Shown here: in pieces, positions 17,598-24,575 of the stretch
How positions within the stretch are numbered: position 1 is the stretch's first letter
Layout of the letters: each line of letters starts with the position of its first letter
Origin: Flavobacterium ranwuense
Lineage (GTDB): Bacteria > Bacteroidota > Bacteroidia > Flavobacteriales > Flavobacteriaceae
Assembly: GCF_004349315.1 (NCBI RefSeq)
Contig: NZ_SMLH01000007.1
Coordinates: forward strand, 62,001-126,000
Direction: 5' to 3'
Length of the DNA stretch: 64,000 nt
The notes under the pieces: model-generated
Databases searched by the model: none
What the model saw: the letters and a program-made list of their open reading frames with translations, nothing else
Told to the model about the DNA's origin: nothing
Position numbers and translations under genes: made by a program

Positions 17598-18887
17598 TTA
17601 TCCTAAAAAAGCTTTCAATTCCTCGTAGGTTTTAATTTTAGTACTTACTTTTTCCTTTCCTAAAACACTTTCAATTTGTGCAGGAATTGGCAGTTTTACG
17701 TTTAAAGTGGGTTCTACGATATCCAAAAATTTAATTGGGTGGGCGGTTTCTAAGAAAATCCCAATCGCATCCGTGTGGTTTTGTAATTCTTTTTTCAAAC
17801 CAAGATATCCAACTGCTCCGTGAGGTTCTGCAATGTAACCGTCTGTATTGTAGATGGTTTTCATCGCACCTAAAGTTTCCTCATCAGAGAAAGTAAAGGA
17901 TGAAAAATCTTTTTTGAACTGCTCCAAATCATTGTGGTACATTTCCTGAATTCGGATAAAATTACTTGGATTCCCAACATCCATTGCATTCGAAATTGTG
18001 GCGATAGAAGGTTTTGGGTCATAAATTCCGTTTTCTAAAAATCTCGGCACAGTATCGTTCACATTCGTAGCCGCTACAAAATGTTCGATTGGTAATCCCA
18101 TTTTTTTAGCAATGATACCCGCGCAAATGTTTCCAAAATTCCCACTTGGGCAAGAGAAAACTAACGGTTTGTTTTGTTTTTTTAATACTTTGTACGCAAA
18201 GAAAAAATAAAACATTTGTGGCAACCAGCGTGCAATATTAATCGAATTCGCCGAAGTCAAGTTTTTATGTTTTAAGCTGTCATCCAAGAACGCTTTCTTT
18301 ACCATATCCTGACAATCATCAAAAACGCCGTCTACTTCAAGCGCTTTAATATTCTGACCTAAAGTGGTCAATTGCCGTTCCTGAATATCGCTCACTTTTC
18401 CGGACGGATACAGGATAATCACTTCAACGCCTTTTACGCCAAGAAAACCGCTGGCTACAGCACCACCAGTATCACCGGAAGTAGCGACAAGAACCGTGTT
18501 TTTACTTTCTTTGTTGTCTTTATTGAAATAACCCAAACAACGCGACATGAAGCGCGCGCCTACATCTTTGAAAGCCATAGTCGGGCCATGAAATAGTTCA
18601 AGGGAATAGATGCCTTTTTCGACTTCCACCACAGGGAAATCAAAACACAAGGTTTCTGCTATGATTTCTTTTAAAGTGTCGGTGGGAATTTCGTCACCCA
18701 CAAATTGTTGGATGGCTTCAAAAGCGATTTCTTCATTGCTTAAATTTTCTATAGTATCAAAAAAAGCAGGAGCTAACGGGGTAATTGTTTCCGGAAAATA
18801 CAATCCTTTATCAGTTGCTAATCCTTGTATTACGGCTTGTTGGAAAGAAACTTTGGGTGCGTTATGGTTTAAACTGTAATATTTCAT
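17598..18887 (-). CDS. thrC: Threonine synthase
   Basis: 429 residues, the usual length of the shorter threonine synthase class. The PLP lysine is K107 in GPTMAFKDVGARFM. The phosphate-binding loop TSGDTGGAVASGF, FSCPSGNFGNICAG and ETAHPIKF are all in place. It converts O-phosphohomoserine to threonine in the cytoplasm. It is the last gene of thrA-thrB-thrC, 67 bases after thrB; the spacer contains a 14-bp tandem repeat. Followed by a strong terminator. Confidence 0.96.
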   Translation of the reverse strand: MKYYSLNHNAPKVSFQQAVIQGLATDKGLYFPETITPLAPAFFDTIENLSNEEIAFEAIQQFVGDEIPTDTLKEIIAETLCFDFPVVEVEKGIYSLELFHGPTMAFKDVGARFMSRCLGYFNKDNKESKNTVLVATSGDTGGAVASGFLGVKGVEVIILYPSGKVSDIQERQLTTLGQNIKALEVDGVFDDCQDMVKKAFLDDSLKHKNLTSANSINIARWLPQMFYFFFAYKVLKKQNKPLVFSCPSGNFGNICAGIIAKKMGLPIEHFVAATNVNDTVPRFLENGIYDPKPSIATISNAMDVGNPSNFIRIQEMYHNDLEQFKKDFSSFTFSDEETLGAMKTIYNTDGYIAEPHGAVGYLGLKKELQNHTDAIGIFLETAHPIKFLDIVEPTLNVKLPIPAQIESVLGKEKVSTKIKTYEELKAFLG

Positions 18888-18954: not shown

Positions 18955-19878
18955 TTATAAAATTATTTTCATTCCTTCATCATTTACTTTTGAAACGTGA
19001 ATTTCATACGGTAAATTCATTTCTTCATAAACTGCACTCATGACTTTGGCGATTTTATCAGCGGTTTCCTTTCCTTTGCTTAAAGCAAAAATAGAAGGAC
19101 CTGAACCCGAAATTCCTGAACCTAAAGCTCCGTTTTCTAAAGCCGTTTGCTTGATTAAATCAAAACCCGGAATCAAGACACTGCGCAACGGTTCCACGAT
19201 TTCGTCGTGCAACGAACGTCCGATTAACTCATAATCTTTCGTGTACAATCCAGCGATTAATCCGCCGACATTTCCCCATTGCATGATGGCGCTTTTGAGT
19301 GAAACGTTCTGCTTCAATACCGAACGGGCATCCGAAGTTTTCAATTCAATCTGAGGATGAACCACAGTGGCATACAATTCGGATGGGCTTTCAATTTTTA
19401 TAATATCCAAAGGATTATAACTTCTTACCAACGTAAATCCACCCAAAAGGGCAGGAGCAACGTTATCGGCATGAGCGTTTCCACTGGCTAGTTTTTCGCC
19501 TTGCATGGCAAATTGCACCAATTCTTTTCTTGTAAATGGTCGTCCGAGTAATTCATTGATGCCAAAAACAGCACCCGCTGAACTGGCTGCACTGCTGCCA
19601 ATTCCGCTGCCGGCTTTGATGTGTTTGTAGATTTCTATTTCGAATCCATATTCCGTTTCAACAGCTTCCAACATCGCCAAAGCAGATACTCCGGCCACAT
19701 TTTTTTCGGTTTCCAAAGGCAAGTCGGCACCCACTATTTTAGTGATGCGAATGCCTTTTATAGCTGATTTTCGAATAATCATTTCATCACCAGCAGTTTC
19801 TAAACAAAGCCCCAGGACATCAAATCCACAGGAAAGATTAGCGATTGTAGCGGGGCAAAATATTTTAATAGTTGTCAT
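18955..19878 (-). CDS. thrB: Homoserine kinase
   Basis: 307 residues, a typical GHMP kinase. The N-terminus KIFCPATIANLSCGFDVLG, the ATP-binding loop AGSGIGSSAASSAGAVFG and the C-terminal GSGISGSGPSIFALS match ThrB. It phosphorylates homoserine at the hydroxyl using ATP, supplying thrC. It is the middle gene of the operon, 96 bases after thrA and 67 before thrC. No residue appears to be missing. Confidence 0.96.
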   Translation of the reverse strand: MTTIKIFCPATIANLSCGFDVLGLCLETAGDEMIIRKSAIKGIRITKIVGADLPLETEKNVAGVSALAMLEAVETEYGFEIEIYKHIKAGSGIGSSAASSAGAVFGINELLGRPFTRKELVQFAMQGEKLASGNAHADNVAPALLGGFTLVRSYNPLDIIKIESPSELYATVVHPQIELKTSDARSVLKQNVSLKSAIMQWGNVGGLIAGLYTKDYELIGRSLHDEIVEPLRSVLIPGFDLIKQTALENGALGSGISGSGPSIFALSKGKETADKIAKVMSAVYEEMNLPYEIHVSKVNDEGMKIIL

Positions 19879-19974: not shown

Positions 19975-22422
19975 TTATATGTTTCCAATTCTAATCACAT
20001 CAGCAAATATTCCTGAAGCCGTAACTGCAGCTCCGGCACCGGCACCTTTTATCAATAAAGGTTGGTCAACATAACGGTCCGTGAAAAATAATACGATATT
20101 ATCTTTTCCTTCCAGATTGTAAAAAGGATGGTCTTTCGGGATAAAACGCAAACCAACATTTGCTTTTCCGTTTTCGAATTGCGCTACGTATTTCAAACGG
20201 GAATCTTTACTCAATGCTTCCTTATAAATAGTTTCAAAATGGGAAGCGTGTGTAATTAAAGAGTTAAAAAAGGCTTCGTTATTTGTAGTATCCAAACATT
20301 CAGCAGGCATGAATGACTCGTTTGTGATTTCGTCAATTTCCATTTTATAACCGCTTTCTCGTATCAGGATCAATATCTTTCTGGCAACGTCAATTCCGCT
20401 CAAATCAATTTTTGGGTCTGGTTCTGTAAATCCTTGTATGCCAGCTTCTTTGACGACATTATGAAAAGTGTTATTTTCATTGAAATTATTGAAAATAAAG
20501 TTCAAACTTCCCGATAAAACTGCCTGAATTTTATTCACTTTATCACCTGAAGCAATCAGGTTTTTTACGGTATCGATGATGGGTAATCCAGCTCCAACAT
20601 TGGTTTCAAAAAGGAAAGGGGCATTGAATTTTCTGGATAATTTCTTTAGATTTTTATAATTGTCGTATTCTGATGCACAGGCAATTTTGTTGCAAGTCAC
20701 TACGGCAATATTGCGTTTTAAATACTGTTCGTAGGTTTTAGATACGCTTTCATTTGCAGTAATATCAACAAAAATACTGTTGCGTAAATTGAGCTCTTTT
20801 ACATTGTAAAGAAACTTTTCTTTGTCTGCTACTTGGCCGTTTTCTAAAATTGATTGCCAATTCTTTAAGGAAATTCCGTCCTCGTCAAAATGCATTTTTC
20901 TGGAATTAGACAGCGCAATAACCCTTACGTTTATTTTTAGATTGTCTTTTAGGAATTTATTTTGCTGGTAAATTTGTTCAATGAATTTCTCCCCCACATT
21001 TCCAACGCCCATTACAAATAGGTTTAATTGTTTGGTGTTTTCTTCGAAAAAGTTTTCATGCAACGAATTCAGTGCTTTTTTTACATCTCTTTCGTTGATT
21101 ACTGCCGAAATATTTCTTTCGGAAGCACCTTGCGCAATCGCTCGGATGTTCACGTTATTTTTACCCAAAGTGCTGAACATTCGACCGCTTAAACCTTGAT
21201 GATTTTTCATGTTTTCGCCAACCAAAGCAATGATGCACAGGTTTTTTTCAACAATACAAGGATCGATTTTGTTTTGCAAAATTTCCACTTCAAAAGCGCA
21301 GTTGATCGCATCTTCAGCAACATCAGCGTCAGAATTTAGAATTCCGATACAAATAGAATGTTCCGATGAGGCTTGTGTAATAAAAATCACATTGATATTT
21401 TCATATGACAATACTTCAAAAAGTCTTTTGGATGAACCGGCAACACCAATCATTCCTGACCCTTCAAGCGTAATTAAAGTTATATTGTCAATATGGCTAA
21501 TTCCTTTTACAGGATTTGTGTGATCCATTTCTTGATTTGAAATATAGGTTCCTTCGGCTTCCGGTTCAAAAGTATTTTTGATAAGAATTGGAATGTTTTT
21601 TTTCAACACCGGTTGAATGGTTGGCGGATATAAAACTTTGGCACCAAAATGTGACAATTCCATAGCTTCCTGATAGGAAATGAATGCAATAGGTTGTGCC
21701 TGTTTTACAATTTTTGGATTGGCAGTATACATTCCGTTGACATCAGTCCAAATTTCTAAGTCAGTTGCATTCAGAGCTCCGGCGAGAATGGCGGCAGTAT
21801 AATCAGAACCACCGCGACCTAAAGTGGTGTTGATTCCGTCCAGCGATGCGGCAATAAATCCGGGCATTACAACTACTTGATTCTCATTCGAAGCAAAAAA
21901 ATCAGCAATTAATTGATTAGAAATTTCAAAATTAACTACCGCTTTTCCAAAATGATTATTTGTTTTTATCAATTCGCGACTGTCTTTATAAGCACTATTT
22001 TTTAGATTTTGTTTTAATGCTTCAGCGATAATGTAAGAAGACAATAATTCGCCAAAACTTAAAATGGTATCCGAGGTTCTAGGAGATAATTCACCTAAAA
22101 GAAAACAACCGTCTAACAGTGTTTCAAGATGATTGATAATTCTTTTGATATGACTTAACAGGCTGCTCTGTTCGCTTACTGGGATAAGTTCTTTTAAAGC
22201 GTCTAAATGTTTTTTCTCTAAATCGGCAAGAATTTCTTTAAAGCTTTCATCGCCGGCAGCGGCTTTTTGGGAAGCAAGTTGAAGCAAATCAGTGACTTTG
22301 CTAAAAGCAGAAACTACAACGATTAATTTTTCTTCTTTTGCTTTATTGATGACGATATCTAAAACCCGTTTTATGTTTTGTGCATTGGCAACCGAAGTCC
22401 CACCAAATTTTAATACTTTCAT
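19975..22422 (-). CDS. thrA: Bifunctional aspartate kinase / homoserine dehydrogenase I
   Basis: 815 residues. Residues 1-290 are the aspartate kinase (MKVLKFGGTSVANAQNIKRV; GFIAASLDGINTTLGRGGSD), then a tandem ACT regulatory region (ITLEGSGMIGVAGSSKRLFE), then homoserine dehydrogenase from about 460 (LFVMGVGNVGEKF for NAD(P); FLFETNVGAGLPIIDT; EPDPKIDLSGIDVARK). It performs the first and third steps from aspartate to threonine and methionine. The ACT region suggests threonine feedback. It is the first structural gene of the operon and is preceded by a threonine-rich leader peptide, so expression is probably attenuated. Confidence 0.96.
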   Translation of the reverse strand: MKVLKFGGTSVANAQNIKRVLDIVINKAKEEKLIVVVSAFSKVTDLLQLASQKAAAGDESFKEILADLEKKHLDALKELIPVSEQSSLLSHIKRIINHLETLLDGCFLLGELSPRTSDTILSFGELLSSYIIAEALKQNLKNSAYKDSRELIKTNNHFGKAVVNFEISNQLIADFFASNENQVVVMPGFIAASLDGINTTLGRGGSDYTAAILAGALNATDLEIWTDVNGMYTANPKIVKQAQPIAFISYQEAMELSHFGAKVLYPPTIQPVLKKNIPILIKNTFEPEAEGTYISNQEMDHTNPVKGISHIDNITLITLEGSGMIGVAGSSKRLFEVLSYENINVIFITQASSEHSICIGILNSDADVAEDAINCAFEVEILQNKIDPCIVEKNLCIIALVGENMKNHQGLSGRMFSTLGKNNVNIRAIAQGASERNISAVINERDVKKALNSLHENFFEENTKQLNLFVMGVGNVGEKFIEQIYQQNKFLKDNLKINVRVIALSNSRKMHFDEDGISLKNWQSILENGQVADKEKFLYNVKELNLRNSIFVDITANESVSKTYEQYLKRNIAVVTCNKIACASEYDNYKNLKKLSRKFNAPFLFETNVGAGLPIIDTVKNLIASGDKVNKIQAVLSGSLNFIFNNFNENNTFHNVVKEAGIQGFTEPDPKIDLSGIDVARKILILIRESGYKMEIDEITNESFMPAECLDTTNNEAFFNSLITHASHFETIYKEALSKDSRLKYVAQFENGKANVGLRFIPKDHPFYNLEGKDNIVLFFTDRYVDQPLLIKGAGAGAAVTASGIFADVIRIGNI

Positions 22423-22486
22423 TTTTGTTTGTTTTATTTTAAAAATGCAAATGTTTATTATATATTCAAATACTTTCTTTCTTTAG

Positions 22487-22514
22487 AAAAAAAATATAAC
22501 AAATAGGATTATAT
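22487..22514 (-). terminator. Possible attenuator terminator in the thr leader
   Basis: On the minus strand ATATAA and TTATAT (22509-22514 and 22494-22499) can pair across a 9-base loop and are followed by eight T. The stem is short and made only of A-T pairs, so it is weak. A GC-rich hairpin TACCCC/GGGGTA (22525-22539) lies just upstream, over the leader stop codon. How these compete in attenuation cannot be settled by eye. Confidence 0.35.
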
Positions 22515-22529
22515 GTAAAATGTATACCC

Positions 22530-22625
22530 CTAAGGGGTAGTAGTTGTTGTAGTAAATGTAACAGAAGAAGCAACCCAAAGTTGAGTTGTTATCGAAGTGT
22601 GATATGTTGTTCTGTTGTTTGTCAT
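22530..22625 (-). CDS. Threonine-rich leader peptide of the thr operon
   Basis: 31 codons between ATG (22625-22623) and TAG (22532-22530), 107 bases upstream of thrA on the same strand. The peptide begins MTNNRTTYHTSITTQLW and ends VTFTTTTTTP. Thirteen of 31 residues are Thr, six of them consecutive near the end, with one Ile. This is the signature of a ribosome-stalling leader as in E. coli thrL, but the sequence is not homologous. The stop codon lies in a perfect palindrome, TACCCCTTAGGGGTA. A TACTTTTG promoter element ends only 9 bases before the ATG, so the transcript is nearly leaderless. I infer regulation by charged tRNA-Thr. Confidence 0.8.
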   Translation of the reverse strand: MTNNRTTYHTSITTQLWVASSVTFTTTTTTP

Positions 22626-22634
22626 TTGATTTCT

Positions 22635-22642
22635 CAAAAGTA
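22635..22642 (-). promoter_or_regulatory. Candidate promoter (-7 element) of the thr leader and operon
   Basis: TACTTTTG on the minus strand matches TAnnTTTG and ends 9 bases before the leader ATG. This predicts transcription starting within a few bases of the leader start codon. I saw no clear -33 TTTG. Confidence 0.5.
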
Positions 22643-22763
22643 CAGTTTTTTATAAAAAGGGAAGCCTTTAATTGTATTTTTTGCGAATATTTTAATTTTT
22701 TAATTCCAATTAGAGGATTATTGAATATTGGTTAATTTTTAGCGTCTATGTTGGAGTTATTCG

Positions 22764-22821
22764 TATTTTTATTAAAGTTATTAAACGATTTGCAATTCAT
22801 TTAATAACTTTAATAAAAATA
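22764..22821. repeat. Perfect 22-bp inverted repeat between thrL and hutH (gap 22626-23060)
   Basis: The arms 22764-22785 (starting TATTTTTATTAAAGTTATTA) and 22800-22821 are exact reverse complements, with a 14-base loop. A related word CTTTAATAAAG follows at about 22833-22843. The 435-base gap holds no gene and separates the divergent thr operon and hutH. The element could be a regulator binding site or an RNA hairpin. Confidence 0.7.
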
Positions 22822-22975
22822 TTTAGTTCCTTTAATAAAGCTGATTTGAATAGTTATATTGACTATTTCTAAATTTATTATGGCAACTCGTATTAATTTC
22901 AGGACCTTATATCTCAGATCTTAAGTTAATTAATTTGTAACTGTTTATGCATAAAACCTAATGTTAGTTAGTTTT

Positions 22976-22983
22976 TAGATTTG
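22976..22983 (+). promoter_or_regulatory. Weak candidate promoter of hutH
   Basis: TAGATTTG fits TAnnTTTG and lies 77 bases before the hutH start. No matching -33 element was found, so this is only a suggestion. Confidence 0.3.
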
Positions 22984-23060
22984 AATTTTAAATTATCATC
23001 AATAAATGTTGTTTATTAATATAGATTTATTGAATTTTACCCTTTAATTAGAAAATAAAA

Positions 23061-24575
23061 ATGGACAATACACACTATATAAGTACTCAGTTACTCAGTT
23101 TTGAAACGTTAGAAGAAATTATTTCACATCATAAATCATTGGCTTTGTCTGAAGAAGCCAAAGTTAATATCCAAAAATGCAGGGATTATTTAGACAAAAA
23201 AATGGCTTCTCATTCTGAACCTATTTATGGTATAAATACAGGTTTTGGTTCGCTATGTAATGTAAAAATATCAAATGAGAACTTATCCAAACTACAGGAA
23301 AATTTAGTTAAATCGCATTCTTGTGGGACGGGAGAGGAAGCGCCAGCCGAAATTGTAAAATTGATGTTGTTGCTAAAAATCCAATCCTTGAGTTATGGAC
23401 ATTCCGGAATCCAATTGCAAACCGTGGAACGTTTAATTGAATTTTATAATAATGATATTCTTCCGGTAATTTATACGCAAGGTTCTCTTGGAGCTTCGGG
23501 AGATTTGGCTCCTTTGGCACATTTATCTTTACCATTATTGGGTGAAGGCGATGTGTATTTTGAAGGTAAAAAAGTACATTCAAGTGAAGTTTTAAAACAT
23601 TTTGACTGGAAACCAATTGTGCTGCAGTCTAAAGAAGGATTGGCTTTATTAAATGGTACCCAATTTATGAGTGCGTATGGCGCGCATATTTTGATGAAAA
23701 CCAGCAAATTTTCTTATTTAGCAGATTTGATTGGAGCTATTTCATTGGAAGCTTTTGATGGAAGAATAGAACCTTTTCATGAGTTGATTCATTTTATTAG
23801 ACCTCATAAAGGTCAAATAGTAACGGCAAATCGTATAAAAGGATTTTTGGAAGGAAGCGAAATCATCGAACGAGTAAAAATACATGTTCAAGATCCGTAT
23901 TCTTTCAGATGTATGCCGCAAGTTCACGGAGCATCAAAAGATGCTTTTGATTACGTAAAGAAAGTTTTCAAAACAGAGATTAATTCGGTTACGGATAATC
24001 CAAATATATTTATTGAAAGTAATCAAATCATTTCCGGAGGTAATTTTCATGGACAGCCATTGGCATTAGCGTTAGATTTCATGGCAATTGCGTTGGCTGA
24101 ATTAGGAAGTATATCGGAACGTAGAACCTATCAATTGATTTCTGGGTTGCGAAATCTTCCTGCATTTTTAGTAGATAATCCGGGATTGAATTCCGGCTTG
24201 ATGATTCCGCAATACACAGCAGCGAGTATTGCCAGTCAAAATAAACAATTAGCGACTCCTGCCAGTATTGACAGTATTGTTTCCAGTAACGGACAAGAAG
24301 ATCATGTAAGCATGGGAGCAAATGCTGCTACAAAAGCCTTACGCGTTTTGGATAATTTAGAACGAATTTTAGCTATCGAACTGATGAATGCTTCTCAAGC
24401 TATAGAATACAGACGACCGTTGCAATCCAGTGATTTTATAGAAATGTTTTTAAGTGCGTATCGTGAAGAAGTTCCTTTGATAAAAGAAGACAGAATTTTA
24501 CATTACGATATTGAGAAGACGGTTTCTTTTTTAAATAGTTTTCAAATCGAAGACGATTTGTTAACATTAGCTTAA
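23061..24575 (+). CDS. hutH: Histidine ammonia-lyase (aromatic amino acid lyase family)
   Basis: 504 residues. The MIO-forming triad A145-S146-G147 sits in GSLGASGDLAPLAHL. YGINTGFG, HGQPLALALDF and GQEDHVSMGANAATKA are family motifs. The selectivity region reads KSHSCGTGE with H86, as in histidine lyases rather than tyrosine or phenylalanine lyases. It deaminates histidine to urocanate. The other hut genes are not adjacent; an isolated lyase gene is usual in flavobacteria, and a role in another pathway such as aryl-polyene or flexirubin pigment cannot be excluded. Its last codons overlap a Pho-box-like repeat of the next gene. Confidence 0.87.
   Translation: MDNTHYISTQLLSFETLEEIISHHKSLALSEEAKVNIQKCRDYLDKKMASHSEPIYGINTGFGSLCNVKISNENLSKLQENLVKSHSCGTGEEAPAEIVKLMLLLKIQSLSYGHSGIQLQTVERLIEFYNNDILPVIYTQGSLGASGDLAPLAHLSLPLLGEGDVYFEGKKVHSSEVLKHFDWKPIVLQSKEGLALLNGTQFMSAYGAHILMKTSKFSYLADLIGAISLEAFDGRIEPFHELIHFIRPHKGQIVTANRIKGFLEGSEIIERVKIHVQDPYSFRCMPQVHGASKDAFDYVKKVFKTEINSVTDNPNIFIESNQIISGGNFHGQPLALALDFMAIALAELGSISERRTYQLISGLRNLPAFLVDNPGLNSGLMIPQYTAASIASQNKQLATPASIDSIVSSNGQEDHVSMGANAATKALRVLDNLERILAIELMNASQAIEYRRPLQSSDFIEMFLSAYREEVPLIKEDRILHYDIEKTVSFLNSFQIEDDLLTLA

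Follow-up and report, generated by a model that had tools for sequence, protein, structure and literature searches.

A threonine-rich leader frame upstream of thrABC in Flavobacterium: a probable starvation attenuator without an intrinsic terminator

In the window, by which we mean the whole 64,000-nt stretch of DNA analysed here, the thrABC operon is preceded by a short threonine-rich frame that, judging from its sequence and its conservation, very probably uses stalled ribosomes to sense a shortage of threonine. We consider it fairly probable that this leader is a Thr attenuator (a Thr/Ile attenuator elsewhere) whose output is something other than intrinsic termination, with Rho or pausing as the candidates.

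The leader frame, its promoter box and the operon

Our account is built on features read from the sequence, namely the ORF, its codons, its linkage to thrA, a promoter box, an in-frame hairpin, a hairpin at the stop codon (P1), a conserved motif and a further hairpin (B). In the order of transcription they are placed as follows:

22635..22642, minus strand: TACTTTTG, a sigma-A type -7 box (TAnnTTTG), conserved near the ATG in the genus
22530..22625, minus strand: leader ORF, 31 aa with 13 Thr, from reading the frame and from the Thr-rich frame in relatives
22571..22588, minus strand: in-frame hairpin CAACTCA-ACTT-TGGGTTG, from folding z-scores and an all-pairs column scan
22525..22539, minus strand: P1 hairpin TACCCC-TTA-GGGGTA, whose loop and 3' arm contain the stop codon UAG
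22506..22515, minus strand: conserved motif CATATAATCC (AUAU-N0-6-UC[C/U]), from counts against mononucleotide shuffling
22463..22505, minus strand: hairpin B, with the U-run in its 5' arm and no U-tract behind it
19975..22422, minus strand: thrA, bifunctional aspartate kinase/homoserine dehydrogenase I (NF006959, 1050 bits, over cut-off)
18955..19878, minus strand: thrB, homoserine kinase (TIGR00191, 232 bits, over cut-off)
17598..18887, minus strand: thrC, threonine synthase (TIGR00260, 299 bits, over cut-off)

The leader peptide, MTNNRTTYHTSITTQLWVASSVTFTTTTTTP, is read on the minus strand from an ATG at 22625-22623 to a TAG at 22532-22530, and its frame closes with six consecutive Thr codons, a Pro codon and the stop (CCT TAG). 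Reading the frame confirmed the preliminary description of this DNA, in which a 31-codon minus-strand frame with 13 Thr, six of them consecutive near the end, had been reported. The distance of 107 nt to thrA given there is also correct, but it belongs to the end of the frame and not to its beginning, which lies 203 nt from the thrA ATG (22422). The stop codon does lie inside a palindrome, as had been claimed (ACCCC-TTA-GGGGT), and the promoter element said to end 9 bases before the ATG is found exactly there, as TACTTTTG at 22642-22635.

Is such a frame likely to arise by chance? Among the window's 677 ORFs of 20-60 aa the leader ORF has the highest Thr fraction (13/35 when counted from its TTG, with 7/30 for the runner-up), and when the 260 nt before thrA were dinucleotide-shuffled 5000 times, 8 rounds yielded an ORF that was no longer than 60 aa and had 10 or more Thr. 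The leader would add a small gene and a predicted start site before thrABC, and no NCBIfam or Pfam family was matched, three leader peptides having been compared with both collections; Thr_leader was absent from the 12 Rfam hits obtained up to E 10 in positions 22200-23100.

A TAnnTTTG box is present within -30..+20 of the script-chosen ATG in 54 of 57 genus leaders. Because PMC9723704 places the box of F. psychrophilum at positions -12 to -5, transcription is predicted to start at 22630, which would leave about 5 nt of 5' UTR. The distance from box to ATG in this genome is 9 nt for thr, and 30, 28, 19 and 16 nt for the his, phe, ilv and trp leaders, respectively. We rejected a second promoter between the element and thrA, as no TAnnTTTG was found between P1 + 30 nt and thrA in any of the 57 genus leaders. 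The genome also has a second thrA-like gene (L002, G000:C1:52349-54751) that is 35% identical; by eye, no Thr-rich leader was seen in the 300 nt upstream of it.

Conservation in the genus and across the family

We searched 101 genomes of the genus with thrA and obtained a hit of any kind at 1e-100 in 84. Counting from the match table, 70 of the 101 carry this thrA, defined by at least 59% identity over the matched part, and the other hits represent a paralogue at 34-38% identity. The preliminary description had staked its reading on close relatives having a Thr-rich frame upstream of thrA, and in 57 of the 61 genus upstreams read there is such a frame, ending beside a CCC/GGG hairpin. A covariance model built from those 57 leaders was then searched against the 101 genomes, under stricter filters by which weak matches can be lost. 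It matched once in each of 66 of the 70 genomes with this thrA (9 of the 66 being outside the model-building set) and in 0 of the 31 genomes without it, and a comparison of coordinates placed all 66 matches upstream of thrA. The four genomes that have this thrA and no model match are G001, G095, G016 (contig end) and G020. Some absences of the element are perhaps technical: L065 is at a contig end, and a leader can be made out by eye in L158 and L189. In one genome (G068, locus L056) a 138-aa ORF lies between thrA and the element, which is about 640 nt upstream, and because of this intervening ORF the frame scan overlooked the element. Additionally, in the best 80 of 221 thrA relatives from named records, a set that overlaps partly with the 101 genus genomes, the element was found in 80/80, as was a frame of 22-60 aa rich in Thr; the closest among these 80 is Flavobacterium (F. 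rhamnosiphilum, 98%), as are most of the others. Two Flavobacterium-like thrA loci (L323, L325) come from records labelled Lentimicrobium and Klebsiella MAGs, and their contigs are probably mis-binned.

For the wider family we searched 120 genomes, 88 of which, the window's included and one per genus, had thrA at 1e-200. A permissive pattern, consisting of a Thr/Ile-rich end next to a CC[CT]...[GA]GG hairpin, was passed by 70 of the 87 other genera and failed by 17, while dinucleotide-shuffled upstreams passed in a mean of 5.7/87 cases (20 rounds, maximum 10). A stricter cut of the pattern gave 68/87, versus 1.0 after shuffling, and the genus-built model matched 31/87 at E 0.1 and 21/87 at E 0.01. 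Two of the 17 pattern failures have a leader by eye, further upstream in L158 and with a canonical terminator in L189.

The codons themselves are conserved in kind. Thr occupies each of codons -1 to -4 before the hairpin in 52-54 of 57 genus leaders, and Thr or Ile each of codons -1 to -6 in 32-57 of 68 leaders from other genera. Over the whole frame, Thr makes up 34% and Ile 8% in the genus, and 19% and 12%, respectively, in 65 other genera. The Thr codons of the genus leaders are drawn from the entire box (ACT 143, ACA 129, ACC 70, ACG 7). An in-frame ATG and stop are present in 122/125 leaders, and each of the 125 rows read has its stop codon beginning 6-27 nt downstream of the first base of P1's ACC codon.

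Hairpins, the conserved motif and the terminator scan

The in-frame hairpin is a candidate pause hairpin that, on folding evidence, may synchronise ribosome and polymerase. Its mean z is -1.94 in the genus (46/57 below -1) and -0.93 in 69 other genera (33/69 below -1). It also ranked first in an all-pairs column scan that was not given the site beforehand, and one of its five pairs varies strongly, with minor compensatory types at the rest. P1 ranked third in that scan. A helix between the GGGG of P1 and the U-run ranked second and, consisting mostly of G-U pairs, was set aside as a G-U artefact.

P1 is present in 126/126 rows, but the pattern that picked the rows itself demands it. Support independent of that pattern comes from the second pair outside the C:G core, where the 69 other genera have A-U in 19 cases and U-A in 16 (p 0.0065 versus swapped arms); outward positions 3-5 had no pairing excess over swapped arms. 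With RNAalifold on the genus only, 1/5 pairs of P1 varies, and it is for this reason that we took the question of covariation to the wider family. By eye, another family of the class (L250, L252, L255) has the arms of the stop-codon hairpin exchanged (ACGGG...CCCGT), the stop codon lying either between these arms or next to them.

The AUAU-N0-6-UC[C/U] motif follows about 13-17 nt after the first G of P1's 3' arm. It is present in 49/57 genus leaders and in 41/69 other genera, where mononucleotide shuffling leads one to expect 9.4 and 7.9, respectively. Hairpin B comes next, with z -3.2 in the window, a genus mean of -2.08 (-1.78 in another cut) and a mean of -1.35 in 69 other genera (45/69 below -1). 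In the column scan it did not emerge as a positive-scoring helix, appearing only partially and with a negative score, in a region that aligns poorly. In one set of genera (L133, L134, L136, L141, L143, L145, L160, L164) the 5' arm of B is of a UUGUAAU type that, by eye, could pair with the last leader codons (AUUACAA), a possible alternative fold. Between hairpin B and thrA there are insertions of about 80 nt, containing repeat-like TTTGAACCTTTG sequence, in L023, L024, L029-L031, L035, L036, L038, L040-L042, L044 and others, and 160 nt of other sequence in L009.

We found no evidence for an intrinsic terminator as a general component of the thr leaders. A scan for a single hairpin with a U-tract, at -8 kcal/mol or better and no more than 110 nt after the stop-codon hairpin, detected one in 1/57 genus leaders and 3/69 other genera (0 and 0 in shuffled thr sequences). 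The same scan found strong terminators in the sister leaders of the genus, in his 21/21, phe 20/21, ilv 8/8 and trp 9/10, with medians of -12 to -17 kcal/mol; the trp leader that it missed (L218) has its terminator outside the scanned stretch. These sister leaders (L072, L100, L209 and L224 in this genome, with relatives among L068-L110 and L198-L234) carry HHHH before hisG, FYF before pheA, an Ile/Val-rich stretch before ilvD and WWW before trpE. No hairpin with a U-tract of any strength was present in 47/57 genus thr leaders, versus 46/57 after shuffling. The weak terminator that the preliminary description placed at 22487-22514 reduces to an A/U stem of -0.6 kcal/mol at best, which is background level, and the U-run there is taken up by the 5' arm of hairpin B, which has no U-tract behind it. 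Hairpin B itself is unlike a terminator, because the 8 nt behind the best hairpin of its region contain at least 5 T in just 15/125 leaders. The scan therefore led us to reject a weak intrinsic terminator at the U-run as a general device.

Within the family, strong terminators do follow the thr leaders of L183 (by the scan) and L189 (by eye), and a by-eye survey of 27 upstreams from other families of the class, many of them without a clear leader, revealed canonical thr attenuators in L251, L253, L254, L257 and L258. These cases suggest that the loss or replacement of the terminator in the other thr leaders may be derived.

A proposed mechanism, its rivals and its relatives

How, then, might a leader of this kind control thrABC? 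We propose that a nearly leaderless mRNA would start at about 22630, so that the Thr-rich peptide would be translated at once. If charged tRNA-Thr were scarce, the ribosome would stall in the Thr codons beside P1, and transcription would continue into thrABC. If Thr were plentiful, the ribosome would finish and leave, P1 would fold, and most transcripts would end ahead of thrA or soon after entering it. Since an intrinsic terminator is lacking, we infer that this stop would be factor-dependent, with Rho the most likely factor, perhaps aided by pausing at P1, the motif or hairpin B. Translation of the frame, stalling and the direction of control likewise have the standing of inferences, stalling and direction being argued from the established cases of leader-peptide attenuation and from the sister operons.

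The genome encodes Rho (TIGR00767, 642.5 bits, over cut-off). A Rho loading site would be expected to be C-rich and G-poor, and base composition gives no proof of one. Counting from the first G of P1's 3' arm, genus base content is C 0.325 and G 0.053 at -40..0, and C 0.167 and G 0.04 at +4..+30; beyond +30 the C-over-G excess is gone in the genus and continues in other genera. Inside the Thr run part of the excess is forced by the Thr codons themselves. The insertions of about 80-160 nt and the 138-aa ORF of G068 (L056) point to a switch located upstream of the start region of thrA, and insertions between hairpin B and thrA count against control at thrA's own ribosome site. The expected antiterminator (P2), in which GGGGU would pair with UCC, found no clear support: it forms, with the 5' arm of P1 masked, in many but not all of the species listed, and it was no better than shuffled sequence (genus -4.34 versus -4.29; other genera -3.98 versus -4.43). 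It also counts against our proposal that a ribosome positioned on the stop codon would be covering P1, and that the scans found the element absent from 4/70 genus genomes and 17/87 other genera.

One alternative is a classical attenuator in which the A/U stem ATATAA/TTATAT before the U-run would be a weak terminator, active at the low temperatures at which flavobacteria grow. The window does have ATATAA...TTATAT followed by eight T, similar A/U stems can be seen by eye in several relatives, and there are the canonical thr attenuators of L183, L189 and other families of the class. However, the genus leaders lack a hairpin with a U-tract as often as their shuffled versions do, the stem in the window reaches -0.6 kcal/mol, and part of the genus has CTTTC in place of a U-run yet keeps hairpin B, so we regard this reading as rather unlikely. 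To much the same degree we doubt a second alternative, in which translation of the leader would alter the folding or decay of thrA mRNA and any Rho termination would be secondary, as the authors of PMC12121999 describe for E. coli toiL-topAI. It is favoured by the missing terminator, by hairpin B being the structure nearest thrA and by the short spacing in many genera, where the leader stop is about 58-100 nt from thrA, but it does not sit well with the toleration, between hairpin B and thrA, of about 80-160 nt of in part repeat-like sequence or even of a whole ORF (L056).

Could the frame be no stalling sensor at all, and the element a conserved structured RNA or protein-binding site that is ACN-rich by chance? 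The motif and hairpin B are indeed conserved outside the frame, but such an element would have no need of Thr/Ile content with variable third bases, of an in-frame ATG and stop in almost every leader, of a promoter box near the ATG or of the cognate codon runs in the sister operons, and we consider it very improbable. Stalling control, the core of the preliminary description, is well supported by conservation, exclusive linkage to thrA, codons, promoter position and conserved hairpins. Its attenuator in classical form is not, there being no intrinsic terminator behind the U-run. More tentatively, and with somewhat more doubt than confidence, we extend the proposal of a threonine-starvation attenuator to the family: in most Flavobacteriaceae the thr leader would sense starvation for Thr (or Thr and Ile), with P1, the AUAU-UCC motif and hairpin B replacing the terminator of a canonical ancestor.

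The E. coli thr operon is controlled by the thrL attenuator, which belongs to the Rfam Thr_leader family. The leader described here resembles thrL in having a short Thr frame (outside the genus also Ile) before thrABC, an in-frame hairpin and a hairpin around the stop codon, but differs in having no intrinsic terminator, no supported antiterminator and no Thr_leader match, a predicted 5' UTR of only about 5 nt, and its longest Thr run at the very end of the frame. We therefore keep it out of the intrinsic thrL type, since its terminator scan was negative, and treat it as a variant set apart. It shares cognate codon runs in short frames and, in this genome, TAnnTTTG boxes with the his, phe, ilv and trp leaders of the genus, but these have terminators and an ATG 16-30 nt behind the box rather than 9. 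Leader peptides can also be linked to Rho, as tnaC is. Like tnaC and toiL (the latter in PMC12121999), the thr leader has a frame that would control without an intrinsic terminator of its own, but its signal would be a starved codon, whereas theirs is an antibiotic or free Trp, and its dependence on Rho is hypothetical.

The preliminary description knew of no such leader in flavobacteria. That holds for thrA by name, as neither "thrA" nor "threonine" appears in the main text of PMC9723704 (2021), but not for attenuation in general, because the same text offers strong clues for leader-peptide attenuation upstream of F. psychrophilum amino-acid operons, and its list of conserved structured 5' elements includes hisG and pheA; these regions resemble ours in belonging to the same genus and in the attenuation inferred for amino-acid operons. 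No thr leader in Bacteroidetes was named in the literature searched, in which subscription journals are largely missing. A comparative study by Lopatovskaya et al. from 2010, cited in PMC4833913, may include Bacteroidetes. The main text of PMC2965389 contains neither "Bacteroid-" nor "thrA", and PMC7366714 reports that short ORFs occur within long 5' UTRs in B. thetaiotaomicron.

If our reading is correct, leader-peptide control would span five amino-acid operons of a single genus, and thr leader control would cover most genera examined in one family. It would also mean that an attenuator responding to amino-acid starvation operates without an intrinsic terminator. Single genomes already contain the natural comparison, four leaders with strong terminators and one, equally conserved, without, so that what might take the place of an intrinsic terminator in starvation attenuation can be put to the test directly.
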